Below, piece after piece: positions 1 to 64,000 of a stretch of 64,000 nucleotides of DNA. Both the position numbers and the translations under genes were made by a program. The DNA comes from Pontibacter sp. HSC-36F09 (GTDB lineage: Bacteria; Bacteroidota; Bacteroidia; Cytophagales; Hymenobacteraceae), in NCBI RefSeq assembly GCF_024171605.1, contig NZ_JALKAA010000001.1, forward strand, positions 868,001 through 932,000, written 5' to 3'. Each line of letters begins with the position of its first letter. The first letter of the stretch is position 1. The notes beneath the pieces were generated by a model. The model saw nothing but the letters and a program-made list of their open reading frames with translations, had not been told where the DNA came from and did not search any database.

Positions 1-1
1 C

Positions 2-955
2 AAAATGGTGTGCGTAACGGGGGTTTCGGGCAGTGGCAAGTCCTCGCTCATACACGACACGCTTTACCCAATCCTGAACACGCACTTCTTCCGTGCCAAG
101 CGCGATCCGCTGCCTTACAAGAGCATTGAGGGCTTGGAGCATATTGACAAAGTAATCGAGGTGGACCAGTCGCCGATTGGCCGTACGCCACGCTCCAACC
201 CCGCTACGTATACCGGTGTGTTCACCGAAATCCGCACGCTGTTTGCACAACTGCCAGAGGCCAAGATCAGAGGGTATACGCCGGGCCGTTTCTCGTTTAA
301 CGTGAAGGGCGGACGCTGCGAGGCTTGCGAAGGCGCCGGTATGCGCACGATCGAGATGAACTTCCTGCCGGACGTATACGTGCCCTGCGAGGTCTGCAAA
401 GGCAAGCGCTACAACCGCGAGACGCTGGAAGTCCGCTTCAAAGGCAAGAGCATCACCGACGTACTGGATATGACCGTGGAACAGGCAGTAGATTTCTTCG
501 AGAGTCAGCCACGCATCCTGCGTAAAATTCAGACGCTGAACGAGGTGGGTTTGGGTTATATCACATTGGGCCAGCAAGCCACTACCCTATCAGGTGGCGA
601 GGCGCAGCGCGTGAAGCTGGCTACTGAACTCTCCAAAAAAGACACGGGCCAGACGCTCTATATTCTGGACGAGCCAACAACAGGTCTCCACTTCCAGGAC
701 ATCGAGCACCTGAGCGAGGTACTGCATAAGTTAACTGACAAAGGCAACTCGGTGCTCATCATCGAGCATAACCTGGATCTGATCAAGATCGCTGACTGGA
801 TCATCGACATCGGGCCGGAAGGTGGCGAAGGCGGTGGTACCATTGTGGCGGCTGGCACACCGGAGGATATTGTCAAAAAAGGCAAAGGCTATACCGCCCG
901 CTTCCTGAAAGAGGAACTGAAAACGAGCCACTACCGCGAAAACGGCCAGGCTTAA
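2..955 (+). CDS. uvrA: UvrA, excinuclease ABC subunit A (C-terminal part)
   Basis: This is the last third of the DNA-damage sensor of nucleotide excision repair, an ABC-type ATPase that works with UvrB and UvrC. The reading frame is already open at the window edge, so the ATG at 5 is internal and the gene begins upstream. Visible parts are the second Walker A (GVSGSGKSS, at the very start), the C-terminal zinc module with CEAC and CEVC pairs around residues 107-131, the ABC signature [12 protein letters not shown] near residue 195, and Walker [14 protein letters not shown] near residue 218. The reading frame is intact to its TAA. A strong hairpin follows immediately. Confidence 0.97.
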
Positions 956-972
956 CAGGTATAGCAAGCTAT

Positions 973-1014
973 AAAAAATGCCGCTCCCAGGTATAGGAGC
1001 GGCATTTTTGTTTT
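973..1014. terminator. Bidirectional rho-independent terminator
   Basis: A 10-bp perfect stem (978-987 with 996-1005) is flanked by A-runs on the left and T-runs on the right, so it can stop both uvrA and the converging DUF4142 gene. Its 8-nt loop is made of the recurrent word AGGTATA. Confidence 0.9.
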
Positions 1015-1585
1015 AGATATTCCCGAGCCGGTCTTCGAGTGCTTCCGTTTGCTGCAAGTGTTGTCGCAGGAGCGGGAGCTGCTTGGAGGCGAACTGCTTT
1101 ACTTCCATCACCTGGGCGTTCTCGGCCATGTCCTCGTAGCGTTTCAGTAAACGGTCATGCTCTTCGCGGGTACGCTTGATATAGGCCAGGTCAAAACCTA
1201 TACCTGTTTCGCTACTCACATCGTCGTATACCTTTTGGTGCACCCTGCCTAACTGAGTAGGCACCACGAACTCACGCTCTGTGGCAATGTGCTGCAGGTC
1301 TTCCATCACACGGTTGTGACCATTGCTCATATCCTGGGCCAACTCTTTCACTTCCGGGCTCACGCCTCTCTCCAACGCCAATTCGCCCAGTTGCACATGC
1401 AGCATGTTGGCGCTGGTGGCCTCGGCTACAAAAAGCGCATCGTTTTTCATCCCCGGCATGCCCATGGCTTCAAACTGCTCTACGCTTTGGGCGGCAGCCT
1501 GCTCGATGCTGTCATCGGCGCCACAACTGGCGGTGCCCAGCAGAAGCACGGCACTGGCAAGGTATAGGGTAATTTTTCGGATCAT
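1013..1585 (-). CDS. DUF4142 lipoprotein, copy 1
   Basis: A predicted exported protein of 190 aa in the DUF4142 family, small helical proteins common in Bacteroidetes and Proteobacteria with no established function. I chose the ATG at 1585 because it gives a clean lipoprotein signal, MIRKITLYL...LLLGTASC, with the lipid-accepting cysteine near residue 21. The longer frame to 1639 adds a cysteine-rich leader with no family likeness. The body is almost all helix, with the family's typical features (an M-L-HVQLGELALERG stretch, AQDMSNGHNRVMEDL, and a C-terminal LLRQHLQQTEALEDRL). Its neighbour at 1685 is a paralog in the same orientation, 99 bp upstream. Confidence 0.85.
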   Translation of the reverse strand: MIRKITLYLASAVLLLGTASCGADDSIEQAAAQSVEQFEAMGMPGMKNDALFVAEATSANMLHVQLGELALERGVSPEVKELAQDMSNGHNRVMEDLQHIATEREFVVPTQLGRVHQKVYDDVSSETGIGFDLAYIKRTREEHDRLLKRYEDMAENAQVMEVKQFASKQLPLLRQHLQQTEALEDRLGNI

Positions 1586-1684
1586 ACACGTGGGTTTAAA
1601 ATAGGAGCATCTGCAGCCATGACAGGCGCAGATGCTCAAGATAATTAGATTTTAGGAAATGCCCAGTGTTTGGGATTACACATT

Positions 1685-2266
1685 TTACTTTAGCCCGTCT
1701 TTGATCTGCTGCGCACGCTTGTGGTGCTCGCGCAACTTAGGAAGCGTCTTGGTGGCAAAGGCCTTCACTTCTGCATCATCGTAGTTTGCATCTTCCGTCA
1801 CATCTTCGAACAGGCTGATGTCGCTGTCGTGTGCGCTTACCATTTTGTCCATGTAATCTTTGTCAAATTCGGCCCCTTGCTTTTCGCGCAGGTCACGCAT
1901 CTGGCTCATGTGCTCATTGCTCATGCTGTCTGGCAGCGTGATGTTCTTGCTGAGTGCCAGGTCACTCATTTCTTTGTTAGCCGCCGTATGATCTTTCACC
2001 ATCATAGCGGCAAACTCCTTCACCTGCGGATTTGTAGCACGCTCCTGCGCCAGTTTGCCCGCTTCTACTTCCATCATGCTGCTGCTGGCTGCCTTGGTCA
2101 TAAATTCAGCCTGGTCATCGCGCTCCTCTTCCATGGCAGTGTCTTCAAAACGCTCCTCAGTAACATCCTGCGCCTGATCCACGCTGTCGTTGCCGGAGCC
2201 GCCACAGGCCATGGTGCCAAATAGGAAGGCACAGGCCATTAATCCTGTTGTTGCAATTCTTTTCAT
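1685..2266 (-). CDS. DUF4142 lipoprotein, copy 2
   Basis: A paralog of the gene at 1013 and of the same length (193 aa). The ATG at 2266 gives a lipoprotein signal ending FLFGTMAC; the upstream extension of the frame is AT-rich and unlikely to be coding. The linker after the cysteine is very acidic (DQAQDVTEERFEDTAMEEE). The helical body then repeats the family pattern: EAGKLAQERATNPQVKEFAAMM, VKDHTAANKEMSDLA and a final LPKLREHHKRAQ. The two genes probably arose by tandem duplication. Function is unknown; DUF4142 proteins are often noted next to stress genes, but nothing in this window shows that. Confidence 0.85.
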   Translation of the reverse strand: MKRIATTGLMACAFLFGTMACGGSGNDSVDQAQDVTEERFEDTAMEEERDDQAEFMTKAASSSMMEVEAGKLAQERATNPQVKEFAAMMVKDHTAANKEMSDLALSKNITLPDSMSNEHMSQMRDLREKQGAEFDKDYMDKMVSAHDSDISLFEDVTEDANYDDAEVKAFATKTLPKLREHHKRAQQIKDGLK

Positions 2267-2499
2267 AGTATTATTTCTTGTTAATAGTAAAATAGTTTGA
2301 ACAAATTGGTATACGCCGCTAAAGCCATGGAGTTTATATGATAGGCCTCTTATATATAGGAAGCAGGTAATAATATACTTTGGGGATATCCGGAACAGGA
2401 TACTTGTATACAAAACGCAAGCACTTACGACCACAACTATCTCAGGTATAAAACGATATATACCTACTCGAGTACAGACTCCCGTTTAAGCCATACCTT

Positions 2500-3210
2500 A
2501 TGACACAACTCTTCGCTATGCGCCTCATCACAGCTTTGTTGTTTTGTTCATGCTTATTGATCTGCTCTGCGGCCCACGCGCAAGTAACGGAAGAGGAAAG
2601 AGAAGACCGCACCGAAATGATCAACATAGACCGCGACCATGACAAGACGATCAAGATCCATCCGCTGCATTATGGGGAGGTGTTTGTATCGTATGAGAAG
2701 GTGCGTTCGCCCGGCATCAGCAATGAGTTTGGGCTGAGCTATTTCTACAAACTGCACCTGAAAGGCGATGGCTGGACCTCAAATGCGAAAGACGTGATGG
2801 GCATCGGCATCCGGATGAGCCAACGTTACTATACCTCCAAGAAGAAGTCTCCCCCTTTTGGCTTTTTTCATGGGCCCATGTTCAGTTACCGCTTCATTGT
2901 GTTTGAGCGCAACGTGTTCGACCTGCCCGACCTGCCTCCCAGCGATCCCGACTTCAGGTATGTAGGCCGGCTCTACCAGAACGCGCTGGACCTGAGTTAC
3001 CACCTGGGCTATCAGTTCCGGCTAGGGCGCCACTTTACAACCGAGCTTTCTGGCGGGCTTGGAGGACGCGTCAAAATCGCCAATGCCACCAATGGCGGCG
3101 ATTTGATCAAAGAGAACATCATCGGGCATGTGGTTCACTCCGATGAGGGAGCTGTTATTACGGTAGGCCCTTCCCCACAGCTCAACTTCTCGATCGGCTA
3201 CTCTTTCTGA
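2500..3210 (+). CDS. Exported protein, predicted outer-membrane barrel
   Basis: A 236-aa protein I do not recognise. Its first 28 residues form a signal peptide (a hydrophobic LITALLFCSCLLICSAAHA core, then Q). The ATG at 2518 (MRLITALL) is an equally good start. The mature part alternates short hydrophobic and aromatic strands (FGLSYFYKLHL, MGIGIRMSQRYY, LDLSYHLGYQFRLG, TTELSGGLGGRV, LNFSIGYSF) and ends in Phe, which is typical of Bacteroidetes outer-membrane beta-barrels. It is divergent from the DUF4142 pair. Its TGA touches the last codon of the converging gene at 3211 with no base between them. Confidence 0.75.
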   Translation: MTQLFAMRLITALLFCSCLLICSAAHAQVTEEEREDRTEMINIDRDHDKTIKIHPLHYGEVFVSYEKVRSPGISNEFGLSYFYKLHLKGDGWTSNAKDVMGIGIRMSQRYYTSKKKSPPFGFFHGPMFSYRFIVFERNVFDLPDLPPSDPDFRYVGRLYQNALDLSYHLGYQFRLGRHFTTELSGGLGGRVKIANATNGGDLIKENIIGHVVHSDEGAVITVGPSPQLNFSIGYSF

Positions 3211-3936
3211 TTACTTGTTGATCTTGTTGAGCACGCTGTAGGCCATCAGCTTGCCATTGCGGTAGGTTTCTGACTTTATCCAACCCGTGCCAGGCACAAA
3301 CCACTCCACGGTCTGCATGCGGGTACCGGGCATCTTCATACCCATGGCGCGGGTCTGCACCTCCATGTCCTGGTTTATCTTGAAGCCTTCGTAGGTACCG
3401 GCCGGTACCTCAAACCGCTCTTTTTCGCCAACGGTACGGCCGGTCACCAGCATCGTGATCGTGCTGAAGTTCTGCCCGCTGTTCTTGTCCAGCACATCGA
3501 TGGTAAAGCTCCCGTCTTTTAGTTTTTGGCCGGGGCTAAGGGAGGCCGGGTAATCCATATGGTCGCCCTCCATCTTGATTTCCATGTCTTTGTAGGCGGA
3601 CATCATGTCGGGGTTCATCAGGGAGCGCATGTCCACCCACACGGAGCCGTTTTCGCAGCCTACCTGGTAGCTCCCTTCGTTGGCCATTTTCCCTTTCTCG
3701 TCATACATCTTGGTATGGACAGTCGCCTCCGACTTGCCGCCGTTTTGCCGCACATCGGTTACCTTATACACTACCTTTCCGGTGAGCTTGTTGCGCTGGT
3801 TGTAGCTGAGTATCTCGTACTCGGCATTTTCGGTGAGCAAAAGGTAGCCACTGCAGTCCTGCGCTATGGTAGTGGTTGGCACTGATAAGAATCCGCACAG
3901 CATGGCGATAACAAAAAGAAGGTACATCTTTCTCAT
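3211..3936 (-). CDS. Exported DUF3108/TapB-like protein
   Basis: A 241-aa periplasmic protein with a signal peptide (MYLLFVIAMLCGFLSVPTTTIAQ) and no membrane span. The pattern of a start near YEILSYNQRNKLTGKVVYKV, a middle VPAGTYEGFKINQDMEV and an end VEWFVPGTGWIKSETYRNGKL resembles the DUF3108/TapB-like fold, in which a substrate-binding beta structure ends with 'fPG-GvvK-e'. The biochemical role is not known. It is transcribed against the barrel gene at 2500 with no gap. Family assignment rests on motif recall only. Confidence 0.65.
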   Translation of the reverse strand: MRKMYLLFVIAMLCGFLSVPTTTIAQDCSGYLLLTENAEYEILSYNQRNKLTGKVVYKVTDVRQNGGKSEATVHTKMYDEKGKMANEGSYQVGCENGSVWVDMRSLMNPDMMSAYKDMEIKMEGDHMDYPASLSPGQKLKDGSFTIDVLDKNSGQNFSTITMLVTGRTVGEKERFEVPAGTYEGFKINQDMEVQTRAMGMKMPGTRMQTVEWFVPGTGWIKSETYRNGKLMAYSVLNKINK

Positions 3937-4064
3937 AGTCTTTACCTGTTAAATTGATATCAATAACTTTTCTAAAGATAGTTATAATTTATGCAATACC
4001 CCTATAAACACCTGACTTGCAGGCAGGTGGCCATAATTGACTAGTGACCGGACTGAAACACAGG

Positions 4065-4097
4065 GTATAAAAAAAGCCGGACAATGGCCCGGCTTTG
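4065..4097 (-). terminator. Terminator of the enoyl-CoA hydratase gene
   Basis: An 8-bp stem AAAGCCGG/CCGGCTTT (4073-4080 with 4089-4096) is followed on the minus strand by a run of T. Confidence 0.8.
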
Positions 4098-4124
4098 TAG
4101 GTATAGGTGATAAGGTATAGCGGG

Positions 4125-4907
4125 CTAAGCGCCTGTAAAGTTTGGCTTGCGCTTTTCGTTAAAGGCCGTTACACCCTCTTTGTAATCAGCGGAGTTGCCT
4201 GCTATTTTCTGGCAGTGGGCTTCGTAATCCAGCATTTCGTCCAGCGTGGAGTTAAACGATTTGTTGAGCATCTTTTTCATCAAACCGATGGCTTTGGTAG
4301 GCGCCACAGCATAGCGAGCAGCCAGTTCAGCTACGGCCGCGTCCAGCTCTTCCGGAGCCACTACGCGGTTCACCATACCCAGTTGCAGCGCTTCCTCGGC
4401 GCTCACTTTAGAGCCCAGCGTGCTCAGCTCAAAAGCTTTCAGCGAACCCACTACACGCGGCAAAAAGAAGGAAGAACCCGAGTCAAGGACCAGGCCTACG
4501 TTCACGAACACCTCGATCATGCTAGCTGCGGTTGAGGCTACCACCAGATCGCAGGCGAGGGCGAGGGAACAACCGGCACCGGCGGCTACCCCGTTCAGCT
4601 TGCAGATGATGGGCTTGGGCAGGCTGCGCATGGCCCGGATGATCGGGTTATACCGCTTCTCCAACGACTCCGACAAATCGCGCTTGTCGGCACTCGCGAT
4701 GGCCTTGAGGTCCTGACCGGAGCAGAAGGCTTTGCCGGCGCCTGTCAAAATCACCACGCGCACGCTGTCGTCGCGAGTTACCTGCTTCAGGGCGTCCTGC
4801 AGCTCGTAGCTCTGCTTGTCGTTAAAGGCGTTGAAAACATCGGGTCTGTTCAGCGTGATGGTCGCAATGCCACCCTGCACATCATATAGCAAGCATTCGT
4901 AGTTCAT
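4125..4907 (-). CDS. Enoyl-CoA hydratase/isomerase, PaaG-like
   Basis: A crotonase-fold enzyme (260 aa) acting on acyl-CoA thioesters. The sequence has the oxyanion-hole regions AFCSGQDLKAIA and GVAAGAGCSLALACDLVVAS. The segment VGLVLDSGSSFFLPRVVG, with an Asp where PaaG has its catalytic residue, points to the PaaG type (ring 1,2-epoxyphenylacetyl-CoA isomerase of phenylacetate breakdown) rather than a plain hydratase with two Glu. No other paa genes are in the window, so it may act in general beta-oxidation. The start at 4907 (MNYECLL) fits the family better than the in-frame ATG at 4940. No Shine-Dalgarno sequence is seen. Confidence 0.85.
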   Translation of the reverse strand: MNYECLLYDVQGGIATITLNRPDVFNAFNDKQSYELQDALKQVTRDDSVRVVILTGAGKAFCSGQDLKAIASADKRDLSESLEKRYNPIIRAMRSLPKPIICKLNGVAAGAGCSLALACDLVVASTAASMIEVFVNVGLVLDSGSSFFLPRVVGSLKAFELSTLGSKVSAEEALQLGMVNRVVAPEELDAAVAELAARYAVAPTKAIGLMKKMLNKSFNSTLDEMLDYEAHCQKIAGNSADYKEGVTAFNEKRKPNFTGA

Positions 4908-4974
4908 GTTGTCGTTTGTTTTTGTAGAAGAGATAACCAAAGGTATAGATAATCACCCTGAAGAGCAAAAGCGG

Positions 4975-5595
4975 CTACAGGGCCACAAAGCCCGCCAACA
5001 GTACCAGCAAAAGCCCTGTCAGAAAGCCCGTATACGCCTGCGCCGGGGTATGGGCATGCAAGGCCAGCCTTGCCGAGAGTACCGCCCCTGACACCAACAC
5101 CAGCAGCACGATAGGTATAAGCAAGCCCGACTCGGGCATGAGTTTGTTCATGAGCAAAAGCACTCCCAAGGCTCCTCCCAACCCGATGCCGTGCGCACTG
5201 ATCTTCCAGAAAAAAGAAACGCACCAGGCCACCAGAACAGAGGCTGTGACCACGCCCATCACGAAATAGAAGAGTAGATCAAACACAGACTCTGAGTAAA
5301 ACAGGTAGGTCGTGACGCCGTAGCAAAGGGCGGTAAACAGAAGCGGTCGGCTGCGTTGCTCCCGCCGGTCTATTTCATAAGAATCGATGAAACCGGTTTT
5401 GAACATGGCGAAAGCACCCAGCCCGGGCACCATAAACGTCGTGAAAAAGATCATGCTCAGCACGATCCAGCGACTTTGCAGTGGAAGCGAAATAGAAGAA
5501 ACCGGCAAAAAATAAAGGATGATGGCAAACAGATACGTCGGCATCAGCAGAGGGTGAAACGCAACAGACAAAAAGCGGGCGAGGGAGCGGTTCAA
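4975..5595 (-). CDS. PAP2-like integral membrane protein
   Basis: A 206-aa membrane protein with about six hydrophobic helices. It keeps a degenerate PAP2 phosphatase signature: a basic stretch ending in RP (YEIDRREQRSRP, about residue 80), then KISAHGIG and a final SARLALHAHTPAQAYTG with the motif-3 His. Bacteroidetes carry many such short PAP2-related proteins, possibly acting on undecaprenyl or phosphatidyl phosphates. The motif residues are present but spaced unusually, so catalytic activity is uncertain. It lies just upstream of the PaaG-like gene on the same strand (67-bp gap). Confidence 0.65.
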   Translation of the reverse strand: MNRSLARFLSVAFHPLLMPTYLFAIILYFLPVSSISLPLQSRWIVLSMIFFTTFMVPGLGAFAMFKTGFIDSYEIDRREQRSRPLLFTALCYGVTTYLFYSESVFDLLFYFVMGVVTASVLVAWCVSFFWKISAHGIGLGGALGVLLLMNKLMPESGLLIPIVLLVLVSGAVLSARLALHAHTPAQAYTGFLTGLLLVLLAGFVAL

Positions 5596-5670
5596 GGGGG
5601 AGTTAGTGATTGAGTGAAATAGTGCGTTAGTGAATTAGAAGAGTTCGCTTGTAGGGACAAGGTCGCGATC

Positions 5671-5799
5671 TGTCTGAATCGTGCACCTATAATTCTTTAA
5701 GCTATACCTGTCCTAATCGTGTCCGTCTTTCTATGGATTATACCTGTCTTGGTCATCAACAGATAATCCTGCAGGTTATACTTGTCCTAATCGTGCACC
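5671..5799. repeat. Four degenerate copies of a ~20-bp intergenic repeat
   Basis: Imperfect copies of a unit near TATACCTGTCCTAATCGTG occur at 5671-5687, 5703-5721, about 5739-5755 and 5777-5799. Copies 1 and 4 end in the same TCGTGCACC. They lie between rpoN and the PAP2-like gene, in about 237 bp with no gene. Confidence 0.6.
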
Positions 5800-5832
5800 A
5801 AACAACAATTTAACCATCAACAATTCAACAAT

Positions 5833-7278
5833 TTATAACTCTTTCCGCAGGCGGGCTACCGGTATGTTGAGCTGCTCGCGGTACTTGGCCACGGTACGGC
5901 GGGCGATGTTGTAGCCCTTGTCGTTGAGCATCTTTTCGATTTTCTCATCGGAGAGCGGCTTGCGCTTGCTTTCCTTGTCGATGATCTCCTTGAGGATGTG
6001 CTTTACCTCGCGGCTGCTGGCATCCTCGCCGGAGTCGGTGGCGATGCCTTCGGAGAAAAAGTACTTGAGCGGATAGATGCCGAACTCCGTCTGCACGGCC
6101 TTGCTGTTGGCCACACGGCTCACGGTACTGATGTCCATGCCAATGTCTTCGGCAATGTCCTTCAGGATCATCGGGCGCAGCTTACTTTCGTCACCCTCCA
6201 GGAAAAACTCGTGCTGGTACTTGATGATGGACTCCATGGTGCGCAGCAGCGTGTTCTGGCGCTGGCGGATGGCATCAATAAACCATTTGGCCGCGTCCAG
6301 CTTCTGCTTCACAAAAGTTACCGTCTCCTTCAGCTTCTTGTCCTTCTTGTCTGACTTGTCGTAGGCGTCGAACATGTCGGCATAGGAGCGGCTGATGCGC
6401 AAGTCCGGGGCGTTGCGGGAGTTGAGCGAGAGCTGCAGCTGCCCGTTTTCGTTGGTGAGGATGAAGTCAGGTATAATGTACTGCACCCGAGCCATGCCAG
6501 CTCCACTTCCGCCCGGTTTCGGATTGAGTTTGATGATCACGTCGATGGCTTTTTTCAGCTCATCTTCCGAAACGTTAAACTTCGACTGTATTTTCTGGTA
6601 ATGCTTCTTGGTGAACTCGTCGAACGACTCCTTGATGATGCGCTCAGCCAGCCGGGTCGTTTCGTCCTGCTCGCGGCGCTCGAGTTGCAGCAGCAGGCAT
6701 TCCGGCAGATCGCGGGCGCCTATACCCGCCGGGTCGAAGGTCTGGACCATGTGCAGCACCTGCTCGATCTCCTCTTCGGTGGTCATCACGTTCTGCGAAA
6801 AAGCCAGGTCGTTGGCAATGGAGCTCAGCTCACGGCGTATGTACCCATCACTGTCAATGCTGCCGATGAGCTGCATGCCAATGGTATACTGCTTGTCGTC
6901 GAGCGCCAGGAAACCGAGCTGGTCCATCAGGTTGTCGTTGAGCGAGCTGGACATGGCAATCGGCATTTCGCGGTCTTCCTCATCGCCACCGCGGTCGCCC
7001 TGCATTTTGTAGCCGCTTATCTCGTCATCGTTGAGGTAGTCGTTGATATCGACTTCGTCCTTACCGTAGTCGTCCTCGCTGTCGTAGTCCTCTGATTCTG
7101 AGTCGCTGTATTCATTTTCGGACTCTTCACGGCCTTCTTCAAGCGCCGGGTTCACCTCCATCTCCTCTTTTATGCGCGCCTCGAGCTCAACAGTAGGTAT
7201 CTGCAGCAGCTTGATAAATTGTATCTGCTGCGGCGATAACTTCTGGGATAAGAGTTGTCTTAAATCGAGTCGCTGCAT
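5833..7278 (-). CDS. rpoN: RNA polymerase sigma-54 factor
   Basis: RpoN (481 aa) directs RNA polymerase to -24/-12 promoters, which need an AAA+ activator to open. Region I is at the N terminus and is rich in Gln and Leu (LRQLLSQKLSPQQIQFIKLLQIP). An acidic linker follows (about residues 50-95, many D/E). The core-binding region and a helix-turn-helix (DIAEDIGMDISTVSRVANSK) come next, and the C-terminal RpoN box is ARRTVAKYREQ. Length is normal for the family. No sigma-54 activator is in the window. The gene is divergent from asnS; about 285 bp lie between them and hold a candidate small RNA on the opposite strand. Confidence 0.97.
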   Translation of the reverse strand: MQRLDLRQLLSQKLSPQQIQFIKLLQIPTVELEARIKEEMEVNPALEEGREESENEYSDSESEDYDSEDDYGKDEVDINDYLNDDEISGYKMQGDRGGDEEDREMPIAMSSSLNDNLMDQLGFLALDDKQYTIGMQLIGSIDSDGYIRRELSSIANDLAFSQNVMTTEEEIEQVLHMVQTFDPAGIGARDLPECLLLQLERREQDETTRLAERIIKESFDEFTKKHYQKIQSKFNVSEDELKKAIDVIIKLNPKPGGSGAGMARVQYIIPDFILTNENGQLQLSLNSRNAPDLRISRSYADMFDAYDKSDKKDKKLKETVTFVKQKLDAAKWFIDAIRQRQNTLLRTMESIIKYQHEFFLEGDESKLRPMILKDIAEDIGMDISTVSRVANSKAVQTEFGIYPLKYFFSEGIATDSGEDASSREVKHILKEIIDKESKRKPLSDEKIEKMLNDKGYNIARRTVAKYREQLNIPVARLRKEL

Positions 7279-7341
7279 AGTAGGAAAACGGATATTCGTG
7301 CCGCTTAGTGCACCTTCAAATTTAGGATAATTTTACTTGCA

Positions 7342-7373
7342 TTTACAAAAAAGGTTAAAATATCGTTACTTTG
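7342..7373 (+). promoter_or_regulatory. Possible Bacteroidetes-type promoter for the small RNA
   Basis: TTACTTTG at 7366-7373 is one base from the Bacteroidetes -7 consensus TAnnTTTG. TTTA sits 20 bases upstream at 7342-7345, where TTTG is expected. Transcription would begin near 7380, exactly where the first helix of the candidate RNA starts. Short motifs, so only suggestive. Confidence 0.4.
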
Positions 7374-7379
7374 AGGGAT

Positions 7380-7505
7380 TATTGAAAAGGGGGCTGCGCC
7401 AGGGAGCCAACTATAGTTCACCTGCCCGCTACAGGACTTTCCCTAAGCAGGTTAGGACGGTTGGTTCGGGGCAGCATGGCATCTTTTCCGTCTTCCTCAG
7501 GAGGG
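7380..7505 (+). ncRNA. Candidate rod-shaped small RNA, possibly 6S-like
   Basis: This GC-rich stretch before asnS folds by eye into one long interrupted rod. The nested helices are 7384-7389 with 7483-7488 (GAAAAG/CTTTTC), 7393-7397 with 7471-7475 (GCTGC/GCAGC), 7407-7411 with 7460-7464 (CCAAC/GTTGG) and 7420-7425 with 7447-7452 (ACCTGC/GCAGGT). Asymmetric internal loops lie between them. Size (about 110 nt) and shape recall the 6S-Flavo RNA of Bacteroidetes, which binds RNA polymerase. It could instead be an asnS leader. It lacks the conserved apical loop of SRP RNA. The strand is favoured by the promoter-like element upstream. Confidence 0.4.
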
Positions 7506-7563
7506 CCGGAAATTATACCTTAACCCATAATTTATTCAGACACATTACGCTACTAGAAATAAC

Positions 7564-9003
<1,440 letters not shown>

Positions 9004-9026
9004 CAGAAGCTATACCTTATACTTAC

Positions 9027-9062
9027 AAAAGCCCGGCTATACCTTAGCCGGGCTTTCTTTTT
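9027..9062 (+). terminator. Terminator of asnS
   Basis: A 12-bp stem (AAAGCCCGGCTA 9028-9039 with TAGCCGGGCTTT 9045-9056) with a 5-nt loop, then T-rich. Stem end plus loop read CTATACCT, the window-wide word. Confidence 0.88.
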
Positions 9063-9113
9063 GGCTAGAAATTTGCTAGTTTAACATAAGTAAAATCCCT
9101 TATAAATAGACTT

Positions 9114-10646
9114 ATGCGATATATATTTTTAGCCTTGCTCCTGCTTGGTTTTGCGGCCCCAGAGGTACGTGCACAGCAGGAGTTTGCCAGTCTCGAGCTA
9201 CCCTTGCGCCGGGCTGAAGACCTGGTGTCGGTGGCGGATGGCGATGGCAACGTGTGTCTTTACTTTTTCCAGGGGGGCAAGCTGAATTTTAGCCTGGTAG
9301 ATGCCAAAGGGCAAACTGTGGCGACACAGGAAATCCCCTACCGCAATGGTCAGCAACCCCAGGTGCTGGGCACCCGCGTAACCGATACGGAGTTTGTGTT
9401 CTACAGCCGCTTTGTCAACGGTAACAAAGAGTATGTGCGCCCCTTTGCCGTGAACAGGTATAGCGGTGCCTTCCGCAGCCTGCCCGATGTGCCCTTGCGC
9501 CGCGAAAGAAACGAAACGTTTGTCGGTGCCTTTGCCGATGCGTCGCACTTTTACATGATCTACACCGACAAAAAGGATAACCTGATCTTGCACCGGGAAC
9601 TGGACGAAAGCTACTACGAGAAGAAGACGTTCCAACTGGCCGACCTGCCACGTACCCGCACCAAAGGCGAGCGCCAGCAGGAGCTGATCTTTGTGCACCC
9701 TGACCTGGAGCGCACCGTGTTCGCCGGCCAGCACCGCAGCAAGATCTATACCCGCGGCGACAAGCTATACCTGGTATTTGACGGCTTTTCGCTGCGTGGC
9801 AAGAAAAACGAACTGACTACCGAGATCCTGACACTCGACTGGCCAAGCGGAAAAACGGAGTACCGCACCCTGCCGTCACTAGCTGTAAAAAACGAGGCCA
9901 ATTTCAACTCCTTCCTGCATAGCAATACCCTCTTTCGGGTACAGCTCGAAAAAGACGCGTTTACGCTAACTGCTTTTGACTTCAGCAGCCTTCAGCCGAT
10001 CAAGGAGTACAGGTATACCGCCGATCAGGACATCGACATCAAAGCCACGCCGGTGCACCAGCGGGGAGCGGGTGCCCTATTTTCGTCCGGCAATAGCGTG
10101 ATCGAGAAGACATCTAAAGTGATGCGCAACCTGTCGACTGGCAAACCTGCCATTACGGTGGACGCCTTTAACGACAGCACGCTGCAGCTTACCATCGGTT
10201 CGTACCAGCCGCCGGCCCGCCGGAATCCTGGCGGGGACCCAACCAGACTGGTGCGCACGCCAGATCGCTACATCCAGACCTCCCGTGGACTGTTCCTGAT
10301 GCCCGGCCGCTGGATACCGGCCTATTCGCTGCCGTACAGGTATAACATGTTCCCCTACAACCGCTACTACGACCCGTTCTACAACCAAGCGGGCGAGTCG
10401 GTGGGGCCGGGCATCAGCACCTACTTCAGGGCCGTGCTCGATAGTGAGACGCTCGACAAAGCTTTTGTAGCGAAAGACGATAGTACTGCTGCCACCGTCC
10501 AGGACAAGATAGAGGCATACGAAGAAGAGTTGAAGCAGACGCCAGAGTACAAAACCCTGTACCGCTACGGCAACAACAAGCTGCACTACGGCTACTTCGA
10601 CAAGCGCAGCAAAACTTTTAAGATACTGGAGTTCACACAGAACTAA
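9114..10646 (+). CDS. Exported protein of unknown function
   Basis: A 510-aa protein I cannot assign. It starts with a signal peptide (MRYIFLALLLLGFAAPEVRA, cleavage before QQEF). The mature part looks like repeated beta strands, with stretches such as FYMIYTDKKDNLILHRELDES and YTRGDKLYLVFDGFSLRG that recall propeller blades. A Tyr/Pro-rich segment (PYRYNMFPYNRYYDPFYNQAG, about residues 400-420) interrupts it. It ends in a KLHYGYFDKRSKTFKILEF strand pair. There is no transmembrane helix or lipobox, so it is likely periplasmic or surface-exposed. It is monocistronic, flanked by terminators on both sides. Confidence 0.7.
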   Translation: MRYIFLALLLLGFAAPEVRAQQEFASLELPLRRAEDLVSVADGDGNVCLYFFQGGKLNFSLVDAKGQTVATQEIPYRNGQQPQVLGTRVTDTEFVFYSRFVNGNKEYVRPFAVNRYSGAFRSLPDVPLRRERNETFVGAFADASHFYMIYTDKKDNLILHRELDESYYEKKTFQLADLPRTRTKGERQQELIFVHPDLERTVFAGQHRSKIYTRGDKLYLVFDGFSLRGKKNELTTEILTLDWPSGKTEYRTLPSLAVKNEANFNSFLHSNTLFRVQLEKDAFTLTAFDFSSLQPIKEYRYTADQDIDIKATPVHQRGAGALFSSGNSVIEKTSKVMRNLSTGKPAITVDAFNDSTLQLTIGSYQPPARRNPGGDPTRLVRTPDRYIQTSRGLFLMPGRWIPAYSLPYRYNMFPYNRYYDPFYNQAGESVGPGISTYFRAVLDSETLDKAFVAKDDSTAATVQDKIEAYEEELKQTPEYKTLYRYGNNKLHYGYFDKRSKTFKILEFTQN

Positions 10647-25747: not shown

Positions 25748-25865
25748 TTTTTTGGTGCGGGTATGGGTGTTATCTAAAGGCGGCGTCAGCCCCTTAATTC
25801 ATCTCCTGCGAAGATAGAAAATAACTGGGCAAAGTTTATTAAGCCCCCGCCCGGTAACCGCCATG

Positions 25866-26945
25866 TTATTTCCAGTTTGTCTTCCCAAAATCATACTTCA
25901 GGCCGAGGCTGAATGATCTTGGCAATTCTTCCAGAACCAACAGGTGGTTGATTTCGGCATAAACAGCCATTCTTGGAAATAGTTTCGATTCAAATCCGAG
26001 ACCGGGGCTAAGGCGGAGTGCAGCCCCGAATCCGTTTTCATTATAGCCTTCCTCAGGGTGACTATAAGACACGTAACCAGCATCTATGAGGTGAACGAGC
26101 ACATAAGCGCTGTATTTTTCTGCTTTCTTAAAGGCCATTTCGTACCGCAAACCCAGGGCATACGAATGCGCATTCTCTTCCCCAAATCTATAAGAAGAGT
26201 AGTCTAGGGACGCCTTAATAGAATGCCTGCTGTGCTTGGAGAAGTAATACTGAAGGCCAGCCATATTTCCGTAGCCACGTGCTTCAATCGGAATGTTCTT
26301 GCTGAAGCCATACTTGCTGTATTGCGTAAAAAAGACCCAGTTCGGTTCTTTCCCGGCTTTCTTATCGCCTTGCCACTCGTAGCTAGCATCCCCCTGGTTG
26401 TATTCCCGAATTATCTTAGTCAGACTACCCTCTTTCAAAGTTGTCTTCTCCAACTGCTGCATAATGTCTATGCGGTCATACATCAGCGAGCTGAGCGTGC
26501 CGATGTACTTATGGTCTTTCCGCAAATACTTTTTGCCACCCTGGTTTTCATACATGCTGTTATTCTCGAGTTTATGCAGTGCATTGTCTTTCGATACATA
26601 GTAGTATTCTGATGAATTCTCTTCTCTTTTATAGAGTGAAACCTTAGGCGACTCGATCAGCACCTTCAGCACCAGCGAGACACTATCAGCATTCGTTGAA
26701 TAGCGCCTAGCAACAAACTTTTCACCGTTATCAAGCTTTATCTCAGAGATTTGCTCTGCAGTAAATACTTGCTTGGCACCCTGCTCACCGGAGAGGCGAA
26801 TTTCATTGGGCTCGTCGTAAAAATAAGTGATGGACCCTGTCAGGTTATCTCCATTTTTCAGGGCTATTGCCCCCTTTTGGCTTTGGATCTGGGCATAGAG
26901 AGCAACCGGAAAGAATAGAAGAAAGAGTATAAGTTTGAGTTTCAT
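25866..26945 (-). CDS. Predicted outer-membrane protein, paralog family member 3
   Basis: A 359-aa relative of the genes at 11471 and 12838, encoded 12 kb away. The start at 26945 gives a signal peptide (MKLKLILFLLFFPVALYAQ). The N-terminal KGAIALKNGDNLTGSITYF element and the middle LTKIIREYNQGDAS motif match those of the other copies. The C-terminal barrel ends SFSLGLKYDFGK. It sits between kynU and the decarboxylase gene without clear functional connection. Function is unknown. Confidence 0.72.
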   Translation of the reverse strand: MKLKLILFLLFFPVALYAQIQSQKGAIALKNGDNLTGSITYFYDEPNEIRLSGEQGAKQVFTAEQISEIKLDNGEKFVARRYSTNADSVSLVLKVLIESPKVSLYKREENSSEYYYVSKDNALHKLENNSMYENQGGKKYLRKDHKYIGTLSSLMYDRIDIMQQLEKTTLKEGSLTKIIREYNQGDASYEWQGDKKAGKEPNWVFFTQYSKYGFSKNIPIEARGYGNMAGLQYYFSKHSRHSIKASLDYSSYRFGEENAHSYALGLRYEMAFKKAEKYSAYVLVHLIDAGYVSYSHPEEGYNENGFGAALRLSPGLGFESKLFPRMAVYAEINHLLVLEELPRSFSLGLKYDFGKTNWK

Positions 26946-27115
26946 AAAAAAGGTAGGGTTATAAATTTCGGGTGCAAATATAATCCAACTCCCAGATACT
27001 TGCACTATCTATATCGCACATCTTTTGTTATAAAGAGCGCACGCGGTATACGCAAGTAAAATAGACCTTTACAGAGGAGAGAATACCTAAATAGTTGCTG
27101 AAAAGAATGCCCGAT

Positions 27116-44350: not shown

Positions 44351-44398
44351 AACAATGGCGGCTATACCTGATGCAGGTATAGCCGCTGTTGTTTTTGG
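44351..44398 (+). terminator. Terminator after floA, formed from two facing copies of the word
   Basis: The arms 44351-44370 and 44374-44393 pair over 13 bp around GCGGCTATACCTG, then a 2-base mismatch, then 5 bp, with a 3-nt loop and a T-run. Confidence 0.85.
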
Positions 44399-53727: not shown

Positions 53728-53802
53728 ACCCTGCGCGAAAGGACTATACTGCACAGGTATAGATCTCCTCCATCGCGCACTTATACCTATACCTTACCCA
53801 TT

Positions 53803-54285
53803 ATGGCTGAATCACTTATAGTAGACCAGAACCTTAGCAAAGAAGAAAAATATAAAGCGCTCGTTCCCCAGATTGAGGCGCTGGTAACCGGCGAAACCGA
53901 CCTGATTGCCAACCTTTCCAACATGATGGCCGCCCTGCGCCAGGGCATGGGCTTCTTCTGGGTGGGTGTGTATTTCAACAAAGAAAGGCAGCTGGTGCTG
54001 GGACCATTCCAGGGGCCGGTGGCCTGTACGCGTATACCTTACCACAAGGGCGTATGTGGTGCCTGCTATACCCGCCGCGAAACTATACTAGTGCCGGATG
54101 TGGAGGCCTTTCCGGGTCACATCGCTTGCAGCAGCGACTCTAAATCTGAGATCGTGATACCGGTGATAAAAAACGGTGAAGTGAAACTCGTGCTGGATGT
54201 GGACAGCGACAAGCTCAACGATTTTGATGAAGTAGACCAGAAGTACCTCGAGCAGTTGATGAAGCTGGTGGAAAGCTGGTATTAA
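53803..54285 (+). CDS. msrC: Free methionine-(R)-sulfoxide reductase (GAF-type)
   Basis: A 160-aa fRMsr, a single GAF domain that reduces free Met-R-sulfoxide. The core is FFWVGVYFNKERQLVLGPFQGPVACTRIPYHKGVCGACYTRRETILVPDVEAFPGHIACSSDSKSEIVIPV. The three cysteines used in the family (in PVACTR, GVCGAC and HIACSS) are all present. The start at 53803 fits. It is 75 bp after ribD on the same strand. A perfect hairpin follows. Confidence 0.92.
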   Translation: MAESLIVDQNLSKEEKYKALVPQIEALVTGETDLIANLSNMMAALRQGMGFFWVGVYFNKERQLVLGPFQGPVACTRIPYHKGVCGACYTRRETILVPDVEAFPGHIACSSDSKSEIVIPVIKNGEVKLVLDVDSDKLNDFDEVDQKYLEQLMKLVESWY

Positions 54286-54298
54286 ACCTTCCTAAATA

Positions 54299-54348
54299 GC
54301 AAAAGAAATGGCCTTGTCTCTGCTCTGAGACAAGGCCATTTCTTTTTG
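54299..54348. terminator. Strong bidirectional terminator
   Basis: A 20-bp perfect stem (54301-54320 with 54327-54346), 6-nt loop, T-run on the right and A-run on the left. Serves msrC and the converging barrel gene. Confidence 0.95.
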
Positions 54349-54368
54349 ACGCTATACCTGAAAGCATT

Positions 54369-54953
54369 CTACAGCCTCACCCGCACGCCCAGCGCCAGGT
54401 TAAAGATCTTGCCCGGACTCAGGTATTTCGGGTTCTGGATGTACGAAATCAGGTACTCTGCGCTGGTATTCAATTCGTAATATAGCCCAAACCGCTGCAG
54501 TTTCTCCACACGGGCAAAGTCCAATTGGCCACCCAGGTGCAGGTATAGGTGCAATGCCGTCGGGAATCCGTAATAGCCTTTCTCGTATTTATCACGCGGT
54601 TCCACAATAAAGTACTCCTCCCCAAAGGTATAGCCCAGTTGCAAACCGGCGCGTAGCGGCTGCCAGTCCAGCGACCTGACAAGTATCGCTTTAAAAGGTA
54701 TAGCGGTGGCTTTAAGCGCTGCCGTCCAGATATGGTCCCCTCCGATGCTCTCCGGCAGGTAGCCCACAAACAGGTCCGTCTCCAGCTTTTCGTCAAAAAA
54801 GCTCCGCCCTATACCTACCGACGCAAACCCGATGCTGCCCGCATACTGTACTTTGGCATGGTAGGGCGAAAATGACATATCCTGGCTGTATACCGCCTGA
54901 GGGCTAAGCAGAAGAAGCAGGCTAATGAGTGCTATGACAAAGATCCGCTCCAT
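54369..54953 (-). CDS. Exported protein, predicted outer-membrane barrel
   Basis: A 194-aa protein with a signal peptide (MERIFVIALISLLLLLSPQAVYSQ) and amphipathic strand-like stretches (VQYAGSIGFASVGIGRSF, TDLFVGYLPES, AGLQLGYTFGEEYFI, FNLALGVRVRL). I do not recognise the family. The start at 54953 follows the stop of the upstream phosphoesterase gene by one base, which suggests translational coupling. It is likely a partner of that enzyme. Confidence 0.7.
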   Translation of the reverse strand: MERIFVIALISLLLLLSPQAVYSQDMSFSPYHAKVQYAGSIGFASVGIGRSFFDEKLETDLFVGYLPESIGGDHIWTAALKATAIPFKAILVRSLDWQPLRAGLQLGYTFGEEYFIVEPRDKYEKGYYGFPTALHLYLHLGGQLDFARVEKLQRFGLYYELNTSAEYLISYIQNPKYLSPGKIFNLALGVRVRL

Positions 54954-54954
54954 G

Positions 54955-55767
54955 TTAGTAGGCAATCCGCTTATAATCGTAGCCCCCCTCCCATACCCTC
55001 AGGTAGGTGAATTCGCGCTGCTTCACGGTGGAGGTAGCCAGGTATAGCAGGGTAGAATCGTAACGAAAGTCGGCTCTGAAGCTATGAATATGCCCATGCA
55101 AACTCAGCTGCACCCGTTCGCTGTCTTTTAATGTGTTGTGGAAGGCTCTTTCTAGGGCTGTATCAAAATCATTGTCATACGGCGGTATGTGCGACACCGC
55201 AATTGCCTGCTCCCAGTTATCGCCGTTCTGATGCATTAGTTGGCTGCTCAGCCAGTCAATATCGGGCACTTTGCCATTGTAGTTGTACTCCAGGCTGTTG
55301 GTGTCGATGAAGACAAAGCGGGTATGGCCGTAGTCGAAGGTGTAGTTAAAGTCGCCGTACATTTGCTGGTATACCTTGCGCCCGTTGGCCAGCAGGTCGT
55401 GGTTGCCGACTACGGTCAAGTAGGGCCACTTCAGCCCTTTCATGATGTCGTGCACCCAACGGAATTCCTGCGACATGCCGAAATCAGAAATATCGCCCTG
55501 GTGAATGACGAAATCGATGTAGGGAAACGTGTTGGCTTTGTCGACGAAAGCGTTGGCGGCATCATAGAAGCGCTGGGTGTCGCCCATTACGAGCAGGTGC
55601 AGCGTGTCGCCGGGCTGCTGGGTCTGCAGTCGCGCCAGGTTGCGTGCGGTCAGGTCTCGCTCGTCTTCGTTTAGTATAATCTGATTCGGGTGGTATTCGA
55701 ACAACTCTTCGCAGGCCGGAAGTAGGGCCAGGCTCAGCAAAAGGAACAGGAGGTAAAAATATTTCAT
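54955..55767 (-). CDS. Lipoprotein metallophosphoesterase
   Basis: A 270-aa exported phosphoesterase with a lipobox (LALLPAC). The calcineurin-like fold has metal motifs HLLVMGDTQRFYDAAN (GD, where most relatives have GDxH), IHQGDISDFG (GD), TVVGNHDLLAN (GNH[DE]) and VQLSLHGHIHSFRAD (GHxH). A missing His in the first motif may weaken the first metal site. Substrate unknown: phosphodiesters, nucleotides or phospholipids are all possible. It starts at 55767; the frame to 55791 adds an unlikely leader. It is upstream of the barrel gene and probably co-transcribed. Confidence 0.85.
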   Translation of the reverse strand: MKYFYLLFLLLSLALLPACEELFEYHPNQIILNEDERDLTARNLARLQTQQPGDTLHLLVMGDTQRFYDAANAFVDKANTFPYIDFVIHQGDISDFGMSQEFRWVHDIMKGLKWPYLTVVGNHDLLANGRKVYQQMYGDFNYTFDYGHTRFVFIDTNSLEYNYNGKVPDIDWLSSQLMHQNGDNWEQAIAVSHIPPYDNDFDTALERAFHNTLKDSERVQLSLHGHIHSFRADFRYDSTLLYLATSTVKQREFTYLRVWEGGYDYKRIAY

Positions 55768-62164: not shown

Positions 62165-62196
62165 TTTCCGAGAATCAATAAGGCTATACCTTCATC

Positions 62197-62233
62197 AGCA
62201 GCCTCTGTCCTACCCGGGCAGAGGCTGTTTTAT
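62197..62233 (+). terminator. Terminator of the EamA gene
   Basis: CAGCCTCTG/CAGAGGCTG (62199-62207 with 62219-62227) followed by TTTTATTTC. Confidence 0.85.
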
Positions 62234-62325
62234 TTCATCCCGGCAAGATATGCCAGTATCAGAATTTTCTAATCTCTCGATAATTTACTTATTTAAGGGT
62301 TTACAAGAACCGACCCAACCACCCT

Positions 62326-64000
62326 ATGAGGTTATTACAAACCCTTTTGAGTCTTGCGCTGCTGCTGTTTCTCTCCTTTCAGGCAACGGCACAGGAAGAC
62401 AATTCAGAACTTGCCATACAGGAGCTCAAGCTGCAGGCCGTGAACGATACGGCCTTTATGCTGCACGTCACCAACGAGTCGGGCAACCTGGTCAGGTATA
62501 GCGGCCCCCTGTCGGTGCGCATCAACGGCGACTTGCAGGAAATCAGCTTTACGGAAGGCGAGGCCCGCTTCTCTATACCTCAAAAGGCTAACCTGGTACA
62601 GGTGAGCGCCAATATCGGCACCCATACCATAGCCCGCCTATACCGTCTCGATGCCGAGTCCGAGCACGGCGTGCGCCACTTCCCGATGTGGCTCTCCATA
62701 CTGCCGCCACTTATTGCTATCATCCTGGCCCTTATTTTCAGGGAGGTGCTGCTGTCGCTTTTTGCCGGTATCTGGGTAGGTGGTTTTGTGATCTACGGCC
62801 TTTCCTTGAAGGCATTTTTCACCAGCCTGTTAGCCGTGGCCGACACTTATCTTGTTGGTGCCCTCACCGATCGGGATCATATTTCCGTCGTCATTTTCTC
62901 GATGCTGATAGGCGGCATGGTGGCCATTATCTCCAAAAACGGGGGCATGGCAGGCGTCGTGAACAAGCTCTCGCGCTACGCACACTCCGCCCGGAGCTCG
63001 CAGCTAGTAACATGGGTTTTGGGTGTCGCCATCTTTTTTGACGATTACGCCAACTCCCTGATCGTAGGCAACACCATGCGCCCCGTTACAGACAAGCACC
63101 GCGTGTCGCGCGAAAAACTGGCCTACATCGTGGACAGCACCGCCGCTCCTGTGGCCGCCATCGCGTTCGTAACCACCTGGATCGGCGCTGAGCTGGGCTA
63201 TATCAAGGATGCCACTGTCACGCTGGGTATAGAGGAGGGGGCTTATTCGATGTTTTTAAACTCCCTGCAGTATGCCTACTACCCGGTGCTCACGCTGGTG
63301 TTTATGCTGATGCTGATCTGGATGAACCGCGATTATGGACTGATGTACAAAGCCGAGCGCCGCGCCCGCACGACAGGCGCCGTGAGCAACCACCGTCCCG
63401 ACAGCCGCAGCGACGCCCGCCAACACCTGGAAATGGCCGAGTTCGAAGCCATTGACCCTGACCGAAGCCGCGCCTTTAATGCGTTGATACCTGTTCTGGT
63501 GGTTATTTTCGGAACCGTCATCGGCCTGCTCTACACGGGTTATAATCCCGAAACCTGGGCTGACCCAAGTATAGGCTTCTTCCGAAAACTCTCCATCACC
63601 ATCGGCGATTCCAACTCCTATACCGCACTGATCTGGGCATCACTTTCAGGGGTGGTTGTGGCGATAGTCCTTACAGTGAGCCAGCGCATCATGAGCATCT
63701 ACGAAACGATGGAATCGCTGCTGACGGGCTTTAAAACGATGTTGCCGGCCATGCTGATCCTGATCCTGGCTTGGTCGCTGGCGCAGGTAACCAAAGAGCT
63801 TTACACGGCCGAGTACCTCACCTCGCTTTTCTCTGGCAATGTTTCGCCGCGCTGGCTCCCTGAGATTACCTTTTTCCTGGCTGGCATCATAGCCTTTTCA
63901 ACTGGCTCGAGCTGGGGCACCATGGCCATTCTATATCCGCTGATGCTGCCTGCCACCTGGTATGTAAGCCAGCAGCATGGCATGAGCGTGGAGGAGACCA
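62326..64000 (+). CDS. NhaC-type Na+/H+ antiporter with exported N-terminal domain (3' end cut)
   Basis: The frame from ATG 62326 stays open to the window end (558 codons), so the gene is incomplete. Residues 1-24 are a signal peptide (LLLFLSFQATAQ). Residues 25-120 form a beta-rich domain without helices (AIQELKLQAVNDTAFMLHVTNESG, then LSVRINGDLQEISF). The NhaC antiporter begins near residue 122: MWLSILPPLIAIILALIFREV, then FFDDYANSLIVGNTMRPVTDKHRVSREKLAYIVDSTAAPVAA and FSTGSSWGTMAILYPLMLP. Bacterial NhaC proteins normally start with membrane helices, so the leader is unusual. Confidence 0.88.
   Translation, partial: MRLLQTLLSLALLLFLSFQATAQEDNSELAIQELKLQAVNDTAFMLHVTNESGNLVRYSGPLSVRINGDLQEISFTEGEARFSIPQKANLVQVSANIGTHTIARLYRLDAESEHGVRHFPMWLSILPPLIAIILALIFREVLLSLFAGIWVGGFVIYGLSLKAFFTSLLAVADTYLVGALTDRDHISVVIFSMLIGGMVAIISKNGGMAGVVNKLSRYAHSARSSQLVTWVLGVAIFFDDYANSLIVGNTMRPVTDKHRVSREKLAYIVDSTAAPVAAIAFVTTWIGAELGYIKDATVTLGIEEGAYSMFLNSLQYAYYPVLTLVFMLMLIWMNRDYGLMYKAERRARTTGAVSNHRPDSRSDARQHLEMAEFEAIDPDRSRAFNALIPVLVVIFGTVIGLLYTGYNPETWADPSIGFFRKLSITIGDSNSYTALIWASLSGVVVAIVLTVSQRIMSIYETMESLLTGFKTMLPAMLILILAWSLAQVTKELYTAEYLTSLFSGNVSPRWLPEITFFLAGIIAFSTGSSWGTMAILYPLMLPATWYVSQQHGMSVEET

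Follow-up and report, generated by a model that had tools for sequence, protein, structure and literature searches.

The DUS of the Neisseriaceae occur in dialects that follow the species tree with the core of the word unchanged, and some relatives carry no word (PMC3630211). The Pontibacter word AGGTATA (TATACCT on the other strand) shares these features, being a short, non-palindromic word in strong excess, with dialects that follow the tree, a fixed core and wordless relatives. It differs in belonging to another phylum, in having seven or eight letters instead of ten and a dissimilar sequence, and in that Pontibacter gave no full-length pilus ATPase match and has no known ComP-like receptor; the function of its word is one that we infer. 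The USS of the Pasteurellaceae is likewise a dense short motif with hundreds to thousands of copies, but its sequence is different and its flanking A/T tracts are not seen at the Pontibacter word. Chi sites are short, non-palindromic, over-represented and chromosomal, and so is the Pontibacter word, which unlike Chi shows no clear strand bias, a large excess and dialects inside one genus. Finally, HIP1 and the alternate HIPs of cyanobacteria resemble it in density, in the replacement words of some lineages and in deviations at the edges (PMC4390886). Unlike these GC-rich palindromes, however, the Pontibacter word has a TATA core, and neither AGGTATAG nor AAGTATAA is palindromic; some copies of AACTATAG sit within the palindrome AACTATAGTT.

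Excess of the word in the window and the genome

The window, i.e., the whole stretch of DNA that was analysed, comprises 64,000 nt of Pontibacter sp. HSC-36F09 (NZ_JALKAA010000001.1, 868,001 to 932,000 of the forward strand). Throughout positions 1..64000, in coding and non-coding DNA, it holds 144 copies of AGGTATA/TATACCT (72 on each strand), compared with 12.0 expected from a second-order and 26.1 from a third-order Markov model. Of these, 84 belong to AGGTATAG (46 forward and 38 reverse, with 2.3 and 6.1 expected, respectively), which ranks first among the 8-mers of the window under both models. The excess announced by the original prediction is thus borne out, and so, exactly, are its local counts: the first 10.4 kb (1..10400) hold 23 seven-mers and 14 eight-mers, and the stretch at 53.7-55.1 kb holds 10 seven-mers (53755..55046; starts at 53755, 53782, 53788, 54033, 54353, 54541, 54626, 54696, 54810 and 55040). 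Among the 560 8-mers that permute the same letters, AGGTATAG with its 84 copies is followed in the window by a runner-up with 18. In the whole genome we counted 5,222 copies (2,713 forward and 2,509 reverse) versus 102 of the reversed word (48 and 54), so that both orientations of this non-palindromic word are common genome-wide, as for DUS and USS. The 144 copies in the window are spaced almost at random (mean 431 b, CV 1.06), and conservation of the flanks extends no further than about one or two letters before the word and three after it.

That the excess arises from codon use, base composition or a family of repeats is hardly credible. Its one support is the maximal-order Markov model, which builds the expectation from the word's own sub-words and under which AGGTATAG has no prominence in the window; this is as expected, since the word itself raises its sub-words, and the 6-mer list under the same model is topped by CTATAC, AGGTAT and GGTATA. 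With the window divided according to our own ORF set, AGGTATAG occurs 52 times in coding DNA (1.7 expected) and 31 times in non-coding DNA (0.6 expected), its density being higher between genes, and 200 synonymous-codon shuffles gave a mean of 2.2 copies and a maximum of 7. Codon use, composition and a Markov artefact are ruled out by these shuffles, the non-coding excess and the same-letter counts, and a repeat family is also at odds with the short extent of flank conservation and the use of all frames. Consequently, neither of the two outcomes that had been named against the excess, a Markov-corrected count near expectation or enrichment through codon use alone, was found.

The word does lie in both orientations and in genes as well as gaps, as had been proposed, but the claim that it is usually read as Gly-Ile or Ile-Pro was too strong: these pairs account for 26 and 24 of the 103 coding sites in the window, i.e., 50 or about half, and all six frame and orientation classes are represented. 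Because sites occupy every frame and orientation of coding DNA, a promoter role was rejected. Terminators formed by inverted pairs were rejected too; examples of intergenic pairs in opposite orientation exist at 2444..2465 (starts 2444 + and 2459 -) and 44363..44381 (starts 44363 - and 44375 +), and the 36 neighbours less than 100 b apart in the window include 10 '+-' and 5 '-+' pairs, with no marked excess. The second-longest word-free gap (25152-27117) encloses a 379-aa ORF on the reverse strand (25866..27005) with no Pfam match which, among the 42 other genomes with at least 19 kb sampled, matches only G063 (80%) and G015 (28%).

Dialects and their chromosomal distribution

A gene read as AsnRS from its translation alone (7564..9003, + strand) served as the anchor for locating the equivalent stretch in 49 other Pontibacter genomes. 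In 49 of the 50 genomes of the genus, our own window counted in and G068 left out, the dominant word is AGGTATA in 12, AAGTATA in 20, AACTATA in 5, AAGTATA together with AACTATA in 2 and a weak other word in 2, and 8 have no dominant word; G004 and G036 were assigned from stretches away from the anchor, and G009, G016, G022, G059, G065 and G070 from 4.4 kb only. The single word first noticed is one member of a dialect family that spans the genus. P. indicus and P. lucknowensis belong to the AGG dialect. The dialects are visible in whole-genome counts as well (those of AGGTATAG covering 37 of the 50 genomes), and they are clade-coherent on a tree of eight proteins with an unreliable root and some weak deep nodes. 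G004 was left out of this tree and G036 entered it without data, so that the placement of G036, and the midpoint root that fell on it, are meaningless. Even the eight species with no dominant word are mildly enriched for some words in whole-genome counts, most strongly G007 (AAGTATAA 1,201 vs 252 for the reversed word; AGGTATAG 593 vs 175). One-mismatch words are raised mainly at the edge letters, with ratios of about 1 in the TAT core, and no near-miss word is depleted in all three dialects. Word-rich species tend to have smaller genomes (Spearman -0.66 over 44 of the 50 genomes, uncorrected for kinship). Our literature searches found no published description of such a word in this phylum.

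Samples of 20 kb from each of the second contigs of three AAG genomes, which are probable plasmids, contain 0.05, 0.05 and 0 AAGTATAA per kb, compared with 1.13, 0.40 and 0.70 on the chromosome samples. In one complete AAC genome, 20 chromosomal stretches carry 30-82 words per 20 kb each, and the 16 of them with a clear GC skew show a strand split of 535 vs 478 (p 0.08). The original proposal of a genome-wide signal at a density like that of HIP1, which might serve recombination, methylation, uptake or chromosome organisation, is partly supported. The signal itself is borne out with its 5,222 copies, and roles of the Chi or orientation type are disfavoured, since the strand bias in this complete relative is weak.

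We regard a Chi-like recombination signal, read by AddAB and shielding self DNA during break repair, as quite improbable. The word is short, non-palindromic and scarce on the probable plasmids, and all 50 genomes encode a nuclease of the PF12705 family (about 960-1,020 aa) that we take for AddB; yet this nuclease is also carried by the species with no dominant word. Moreover, Chi sites as a rule favour the leading strand, and a dialect change as quick as this inside one genus would be unusual for them. Any choice among uptake, methylation and another binding protein is itself inferred.

Re-spelling and turnover of sites

The AAG and AGG words are re-spelled partly in place, at matching gene positions. 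In comparisons that share sites and ancestry, AGG sites are spelled AAGTATA in 610 of 3,309 cases (18%) with 13 AAG species versus 77 of 1,458 (5%) with the 8 species of no dominant word, and in the window alone in 85 of 477 (11 AAG species) versus 9 of 195 (the same class, 8 species; p 2e-6). Therefore, dialects changed partly in place; the AACTATA words, for their part, stand mostly at new places and not at existing sites.

Within the AGG clade the word is lost about half as often as control words (46 of 342 vs 405 of 1,509, over six focal rows whose triples overlap in species), and losses weigh more than gains there because near-misses turn into the word no more often than in controls (4 of 281 vs 468 of 32,916). 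In AAG species the loss is not below that of controls (12 of 66 vs 44 of 296), and near-miss gains in AAG and AAC species taken together look raised (6 of 98 vs 58 of 4,938, p 0.001). A stricter polarised test, with at least four other species agreeing, gave little information (losses of 22 of 183 vs 68 of 461 and gains of 1 of 111 vs 128 of 9,930), and coding-only triples gave a picture similar to that of the loss and gain counts above. Retention is modestly higher at non-coding sites (74 of 161 vs 286 of 815), being lower in one of six pairs. That a single mutational source such as deamination acts strongly is ruled out: losses by one mismatch inside the AGG clade are spread over all seven positions, each near-miss escapes depletion in at least one of the three dialects and AGG gains are unraised.

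These patterns bear directly on the main rival to uptake, namely that all or part of the word is the target of a DNA methyltransferase, that methylation-dependent mismatch repair, or selection in favour of a methylated site, creates and keeps it, and that dialects follow methyltransferase changes. Cyanobacterial HIPs combine a similar density, alternates in some lineages and edge deviations with specific methyltransferases (PMC4390886); one-mismatch words in Pontibacter are likewise concentrated at the edges, and the seemingly raised gains in AAG and AAC species agree with such an origin. On the other hand, neither the AGG nor the AAG word is a palindrome, gains in the AGG clade are unraised, the source near-miss should be depleted and none is in all three dialects, and the probable plasmids are word-poor in the same cells, all of which makes this origin somewhat unlikely in our judgement.

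We also consider it unlikely that another sequence-specific binder, such as a nucleoid or repair factor, owns these chromosome-wide sites with no role in uptake. The spread of words over all 20 chromosomal stretches, their random spacing and both orientations, the higher intergenic density, the retention of sites and the very existence of dialects would suit such a factor; however, no bacterial factor is known to us that combines sites this dense with a specificity that changes so fast, and the sparing of plasmids is not obviously expected from it.

Competence genes and the putative reader

Our preferred reading, tentative but quite possible, is that AGGTATA(G) labels the Pontibacter chromosome as 'self'. 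A sequence-specific DNA-binding protein would recognise the short site, and selection or drive on that recognition would keep the sites in being. The most likely reader would be the DNA-uptake step of natural transformation, through which own DNA would enter the cell in preference to other DNA, and the words would be maintained in the chromosome as DNA that carries them recombines; the taste of the reader would drift among lineages, giving rise to the AAG, AGG and AAC dialects with sites partly re-spelled in place. It is possible, though we advance it with more reserve, that Pontibacter possesses a pilus-independent, sequence-specific bacteroidote uptake system whose receptor specificity evolves and re-spells its sites. 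If so, re-spelling in place would set up species barriers, and this would be, to our knowledge, the first sequence-based family of uptake words outside Neisseriaceae and Pasteurellaceae, in a phylum whose DNA-uptake machine is largely uncharted. Since 50 species genomes of one genus display re-spelling, mixture, loss or weakness of a dense word, selection, uptake drive and a repair origin can be tested against one another by comparison.

Competence genes are present in Pontibacter, whose transformability is presumed. A ComEC match and DprA are each present in all 50 genomes and stop-free in 48, and an HHH protein of 304-346 aa, with three HHH_3 motifs in our own genome, is unbroken in 49. The competent bacteroidote R. 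anatipestifer is reported to require ComEC, DprA, ComF, RecA and a three-HHH protein predicted to be periplasmic, along with other proteins that have no known homologues (PMC8459023), and R. columbina favours its own DNA (PMC7965970); among the matches listed for uptake or competence there was no report on Pontibacter.

G009 and G021 have stops in both ComEC and DprA, and G021 also has no unbroken HHH frame, so that the set may decay together, with the reservation that stops in draft genomes can be sequence errors. Despite its stops, G009 is still rich in words (1,096 per Mb). Genome counts are suggestive of word decay in G021, where 461 words per Mb stand against 1,009 in the sister species G070, but site retention in G021 is not clearly lower, and G019, whose genes are unbroken, has as few words (449 per Mb). 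The species with no dominant word also retain unbroken ComEC, DprA and HHH genes.

Across the 50 genomes we found no type IV pilus uptake motor of the kind expected for DUS and USS: for the pilus/secretion ATPase family PF00437 there was no full-length match, and all 50 genomes gave only fragments of less than 70 residues, which lie just above the cut-off in three. DUF5689, which forms part of one of the uptake proteins of Riemerella, was found in 22 of the 50, with a distribution that does not follow that of the word. No receptor candidate emerged among the families searched, and none of ComEC, HHH_3, PF12705, DprA, T2SSE and DUF5689 separates species with a dominant word from those without. 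As a separate observation, the neighbourhood of ComEC in our own genome includes two Omp85-like proteins.

Excess of AGGTATA in the window and the genome

The original prediction was that AGGTATA and its reverse complement TATACCT are massively over-represented in the window, and our recount gave exactly the same figures. Over the 64 kb there were 144 copies of AGGTATA against 12 expected, and 84 copies of its 8-mer form AGGTATAG against 2.3 expected (second-order Markov). The excess persisted after Markov correction: AGGTATAG ranked first among the 8-mers of the window under second- and third-order models. It was not the top 8-mer of the window under the maximal-order model, which uses the word's own sub-words. 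The word also lies in gaps, as had been noted, and does not reflect codon use alone: AGGTATAG occurred 31 times in non-coding DNA (0.6 expected) and 52 times in coding DNA (1.7 expected), as divided by the ORF set made for this analysis. Codon use as its source was rejected, with 200 synonymous-codon shuffles of the window yielding a mean of 2.2 copies and a maximum of 7. AGGTATA was denser between genes (4.7 copies per kb) than within them (1.86) and about randomly spaced along the window; the best consensus around it was C-AGGTATA-G-C, the outer letters being weak. The full assembly of 4.43 Mb (19 contigs) contained 5,222 copies of AGGTATAG, against 102 for the word read backwards.

Dialects across Pontibacter and wider occurrence

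The AsnRS encoded in the window shares 99% identity with the Pontibacter sp. BT731 protein and 97% with its P. indicus counterpart. Among 58 relatives counted over whole genomes (36 of the same genus, 22 of the same order), AGGTATAG ran into the thousands (2,823 to 5,128) in eight of the 36, and stood at 173-833 in the other 28 and at 43-419 in the 22 order-level relatives. Pontibacter genomes low in AGGTATAG mostly have words of their own. In stretches sampled from 49 of the 50 genus genomes, our own window among them, the dominant word was AGGTATA (AGG) in 12, AAGTATA (AAG) in 20 and AACTATA (AAC) in five; two genomes (G026 and G032) carried AAGTATA and AACTATA together, eight had no dominant word, and weak GGTATAC in G036 (L218) and weak CTATATA in G069 (L220) are possibly further weak dialects. 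These calls match the whole-genome counts, which gave 2,246-7,030 copies of AAGTATAA in the 20 AAG species, and 6,288-8,208 of AACTATAG across the five AAC species; G026, G032 and G071 had 2,617, 2,002 and 907 copies of AACTATAG, and by such counts G065 and G071 are likewise mixed. The eight species without a dominant word showed a mild excess in places, largest in G007 (AAGTATAA 1,201 against 252 reversed, whole genome).

In a species tree built from eight concatenated proteins, the clade of AGG species (support 1.0) adjoined two AAG species, G006 and G071; another clade (also 1.0) united the AAC species with the mixed members of their group, and those lacking a dominant word fell into two regions, one weakly joined. 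Because the root of this tree is unreliable, we can but guess, from the spread of AAG, that it was the first dialect. Word-rich genomes averaged 4.59 Mb (n=36) and word-poor ones 5.71 Mb (n=11), kinship ignored and three AGG genomes without whole-genome counts excluded.

In 20 genomes drawn from five further genera of this family, 20 kb of each, the Pontibacter words were absent. At 76 non-Pontibacter loci matched by the AsnRS search, AGGTATAG had 0-3 copies and no dialect word was among the top two listed per locus, AAG and AAC being judged by that listing alone. Something similar may occur elsewhere in the family, since ACCTAGGG was over-represented in two of four sampled genomes of one other genus (18 against 0.4 in G074, L250; 14 against 0.4 in G083, L252; 20 kb each) and CCTACCC in one genome of yet another (G145, L263; 31 against 3.1 expected in 20 kb). 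At the distant Bacteroidota loci L105 and L137, CTCACAAC (12 against 0.3) and CAGCCCCG (13 against 0.7) are possibly local repeats. Among the matches listed, open-licence texts on Pontibacter motifs, uptake, competence or methylome, and on Bacteroidetes uptake sequences and Chi or over-represented octamers, did not describe the word, and no open-licence paper matched two of the six words looked for.

Fate of sites and letter tolerance

Sites were compared at the same codons across species, in mutually non-independent comparisons. AGG sites were intact in other AGG species in 2,420 of 3,374 comparisons; between the window and each of eight species, the word was intact at 48-83% and permuted control words at 21-42%. 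AGG sites were spelled AAGTATA in 610 of 3,309 comparisons with AAG species and in 77 of 1,458 with species without a dominant word, and AAC words stood mostly at new places (AAGTATA there in AAG species in 25 of 724). Polarising changes with an outgroup gave 46 losses among 342 AGG cases, compared with 405 among 1,509 for control words (p 6e-8); gains from near-misses numbered 4 of 281, compared with 468 of 32,916. These totals cover six of eight AGG rows (the other two being the same pair with another outgroup). Losses therefore exceed gains in the AGG clade, where either word creation ended or free near-misses were exhausted. Gains in AAG and AAC species together were 6 of 98 against 58 of 4,938 (p 0.001); loss was not below controls in AAG species (12/66 against 44/296) and was below them in AAC species (9/55 against 41/121). 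Non-coding retention was modestly higher than control (74/161 against 286/815), and under control in one of six pairs (G011).

Taking genomes with no dominant word as the baseline, words one mismatch away were raised mainly at edge letters: 1.3- to 2.5-fold at the first letter, 2.4- to 4.6-fold for the last letter A to G, and in some dialects at letter two or three as well; TAT-core substitutions ran from 0.5 to 2.0. This pattern resembles a binding site with graded tolerance. A mutational source was rejected as a strong force: it would show a neighbour depleted in all three dialects, and none was found among the one-mismatch words of AGG, AAG and AAC. That a HIP-like methylation or repair process makes the word seems to us rather unlikely.

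Candidate readers of the word and competence genes

In three AAG genomes, the density of AAGTATAA per kb was 0.05, 0.05 and 0 on the second contigs (74, 204 and 116 kb; 20 kb sampled from each), probably plasmids, and 1.13, 0.40 and 0.70 in chromosome samples. A protein reading the word would best account for this scarcity together with the graded tolerance, retention and in-place re-spelling. We tentatively suggest, as a reading somewhat short of probable, that the word serves DNA uptake, by analogy with the DUS dialects described in PMC3630211; a binding protein of some other role is an unlikely reader. In the complete AAC genome G030, AACTATA numbered 30-82 in each of 20 stretches of 20 kb; over the 16 with clear GC skew, the G-rich strand had 535 copies and the C-rich strand 478. 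That the word is Chi we consider very unlikely. The 20 stretches (L221-L240) contain a GC-rich inverted repeat surrounding GGTCGCGACC, about 11 copies in 400 kb.

As set out in portions of PMC8459023, transformation of the bacteroidote Riemerella requires ComEC, DprA, ComF, RecA and a predicted periplasmic three-HHH protein, as well as proteins without homology to known machinery. R. columbina is reported to prefer its own DNA, although its authors also give PilB/PilT-like homologues in Flavobacterium johnsoniae (PMC7965970), and in R. anatipestifer transformation is reduced in two tonB mutants, in one of them perhaps via iron (PMC8383284). Sharing several of these genes, Pontibacter has parts of a comparable inner machine. 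ComEC, DprA and a PF12705 nuclease were matched in all 50 genus genomes, and an HHH protein of 304-346 aa, with three HHH_3 motifs in our own genome, was unbroken in 49 of 50; the pilus/secretion ATPase PF00437 gave nothing but short fragments in all 50, three just over the cut-off. None of these five distinguishes species that have a dominant word from those that lack one (50 genomes). ComEC and DprA carry stops in G009 (ComEC at L293) and G021, and in G021 the HHH gene is broken as well (L291 and L289, with ComEC); since the breaks coincide in this way, competence genes may decay together.
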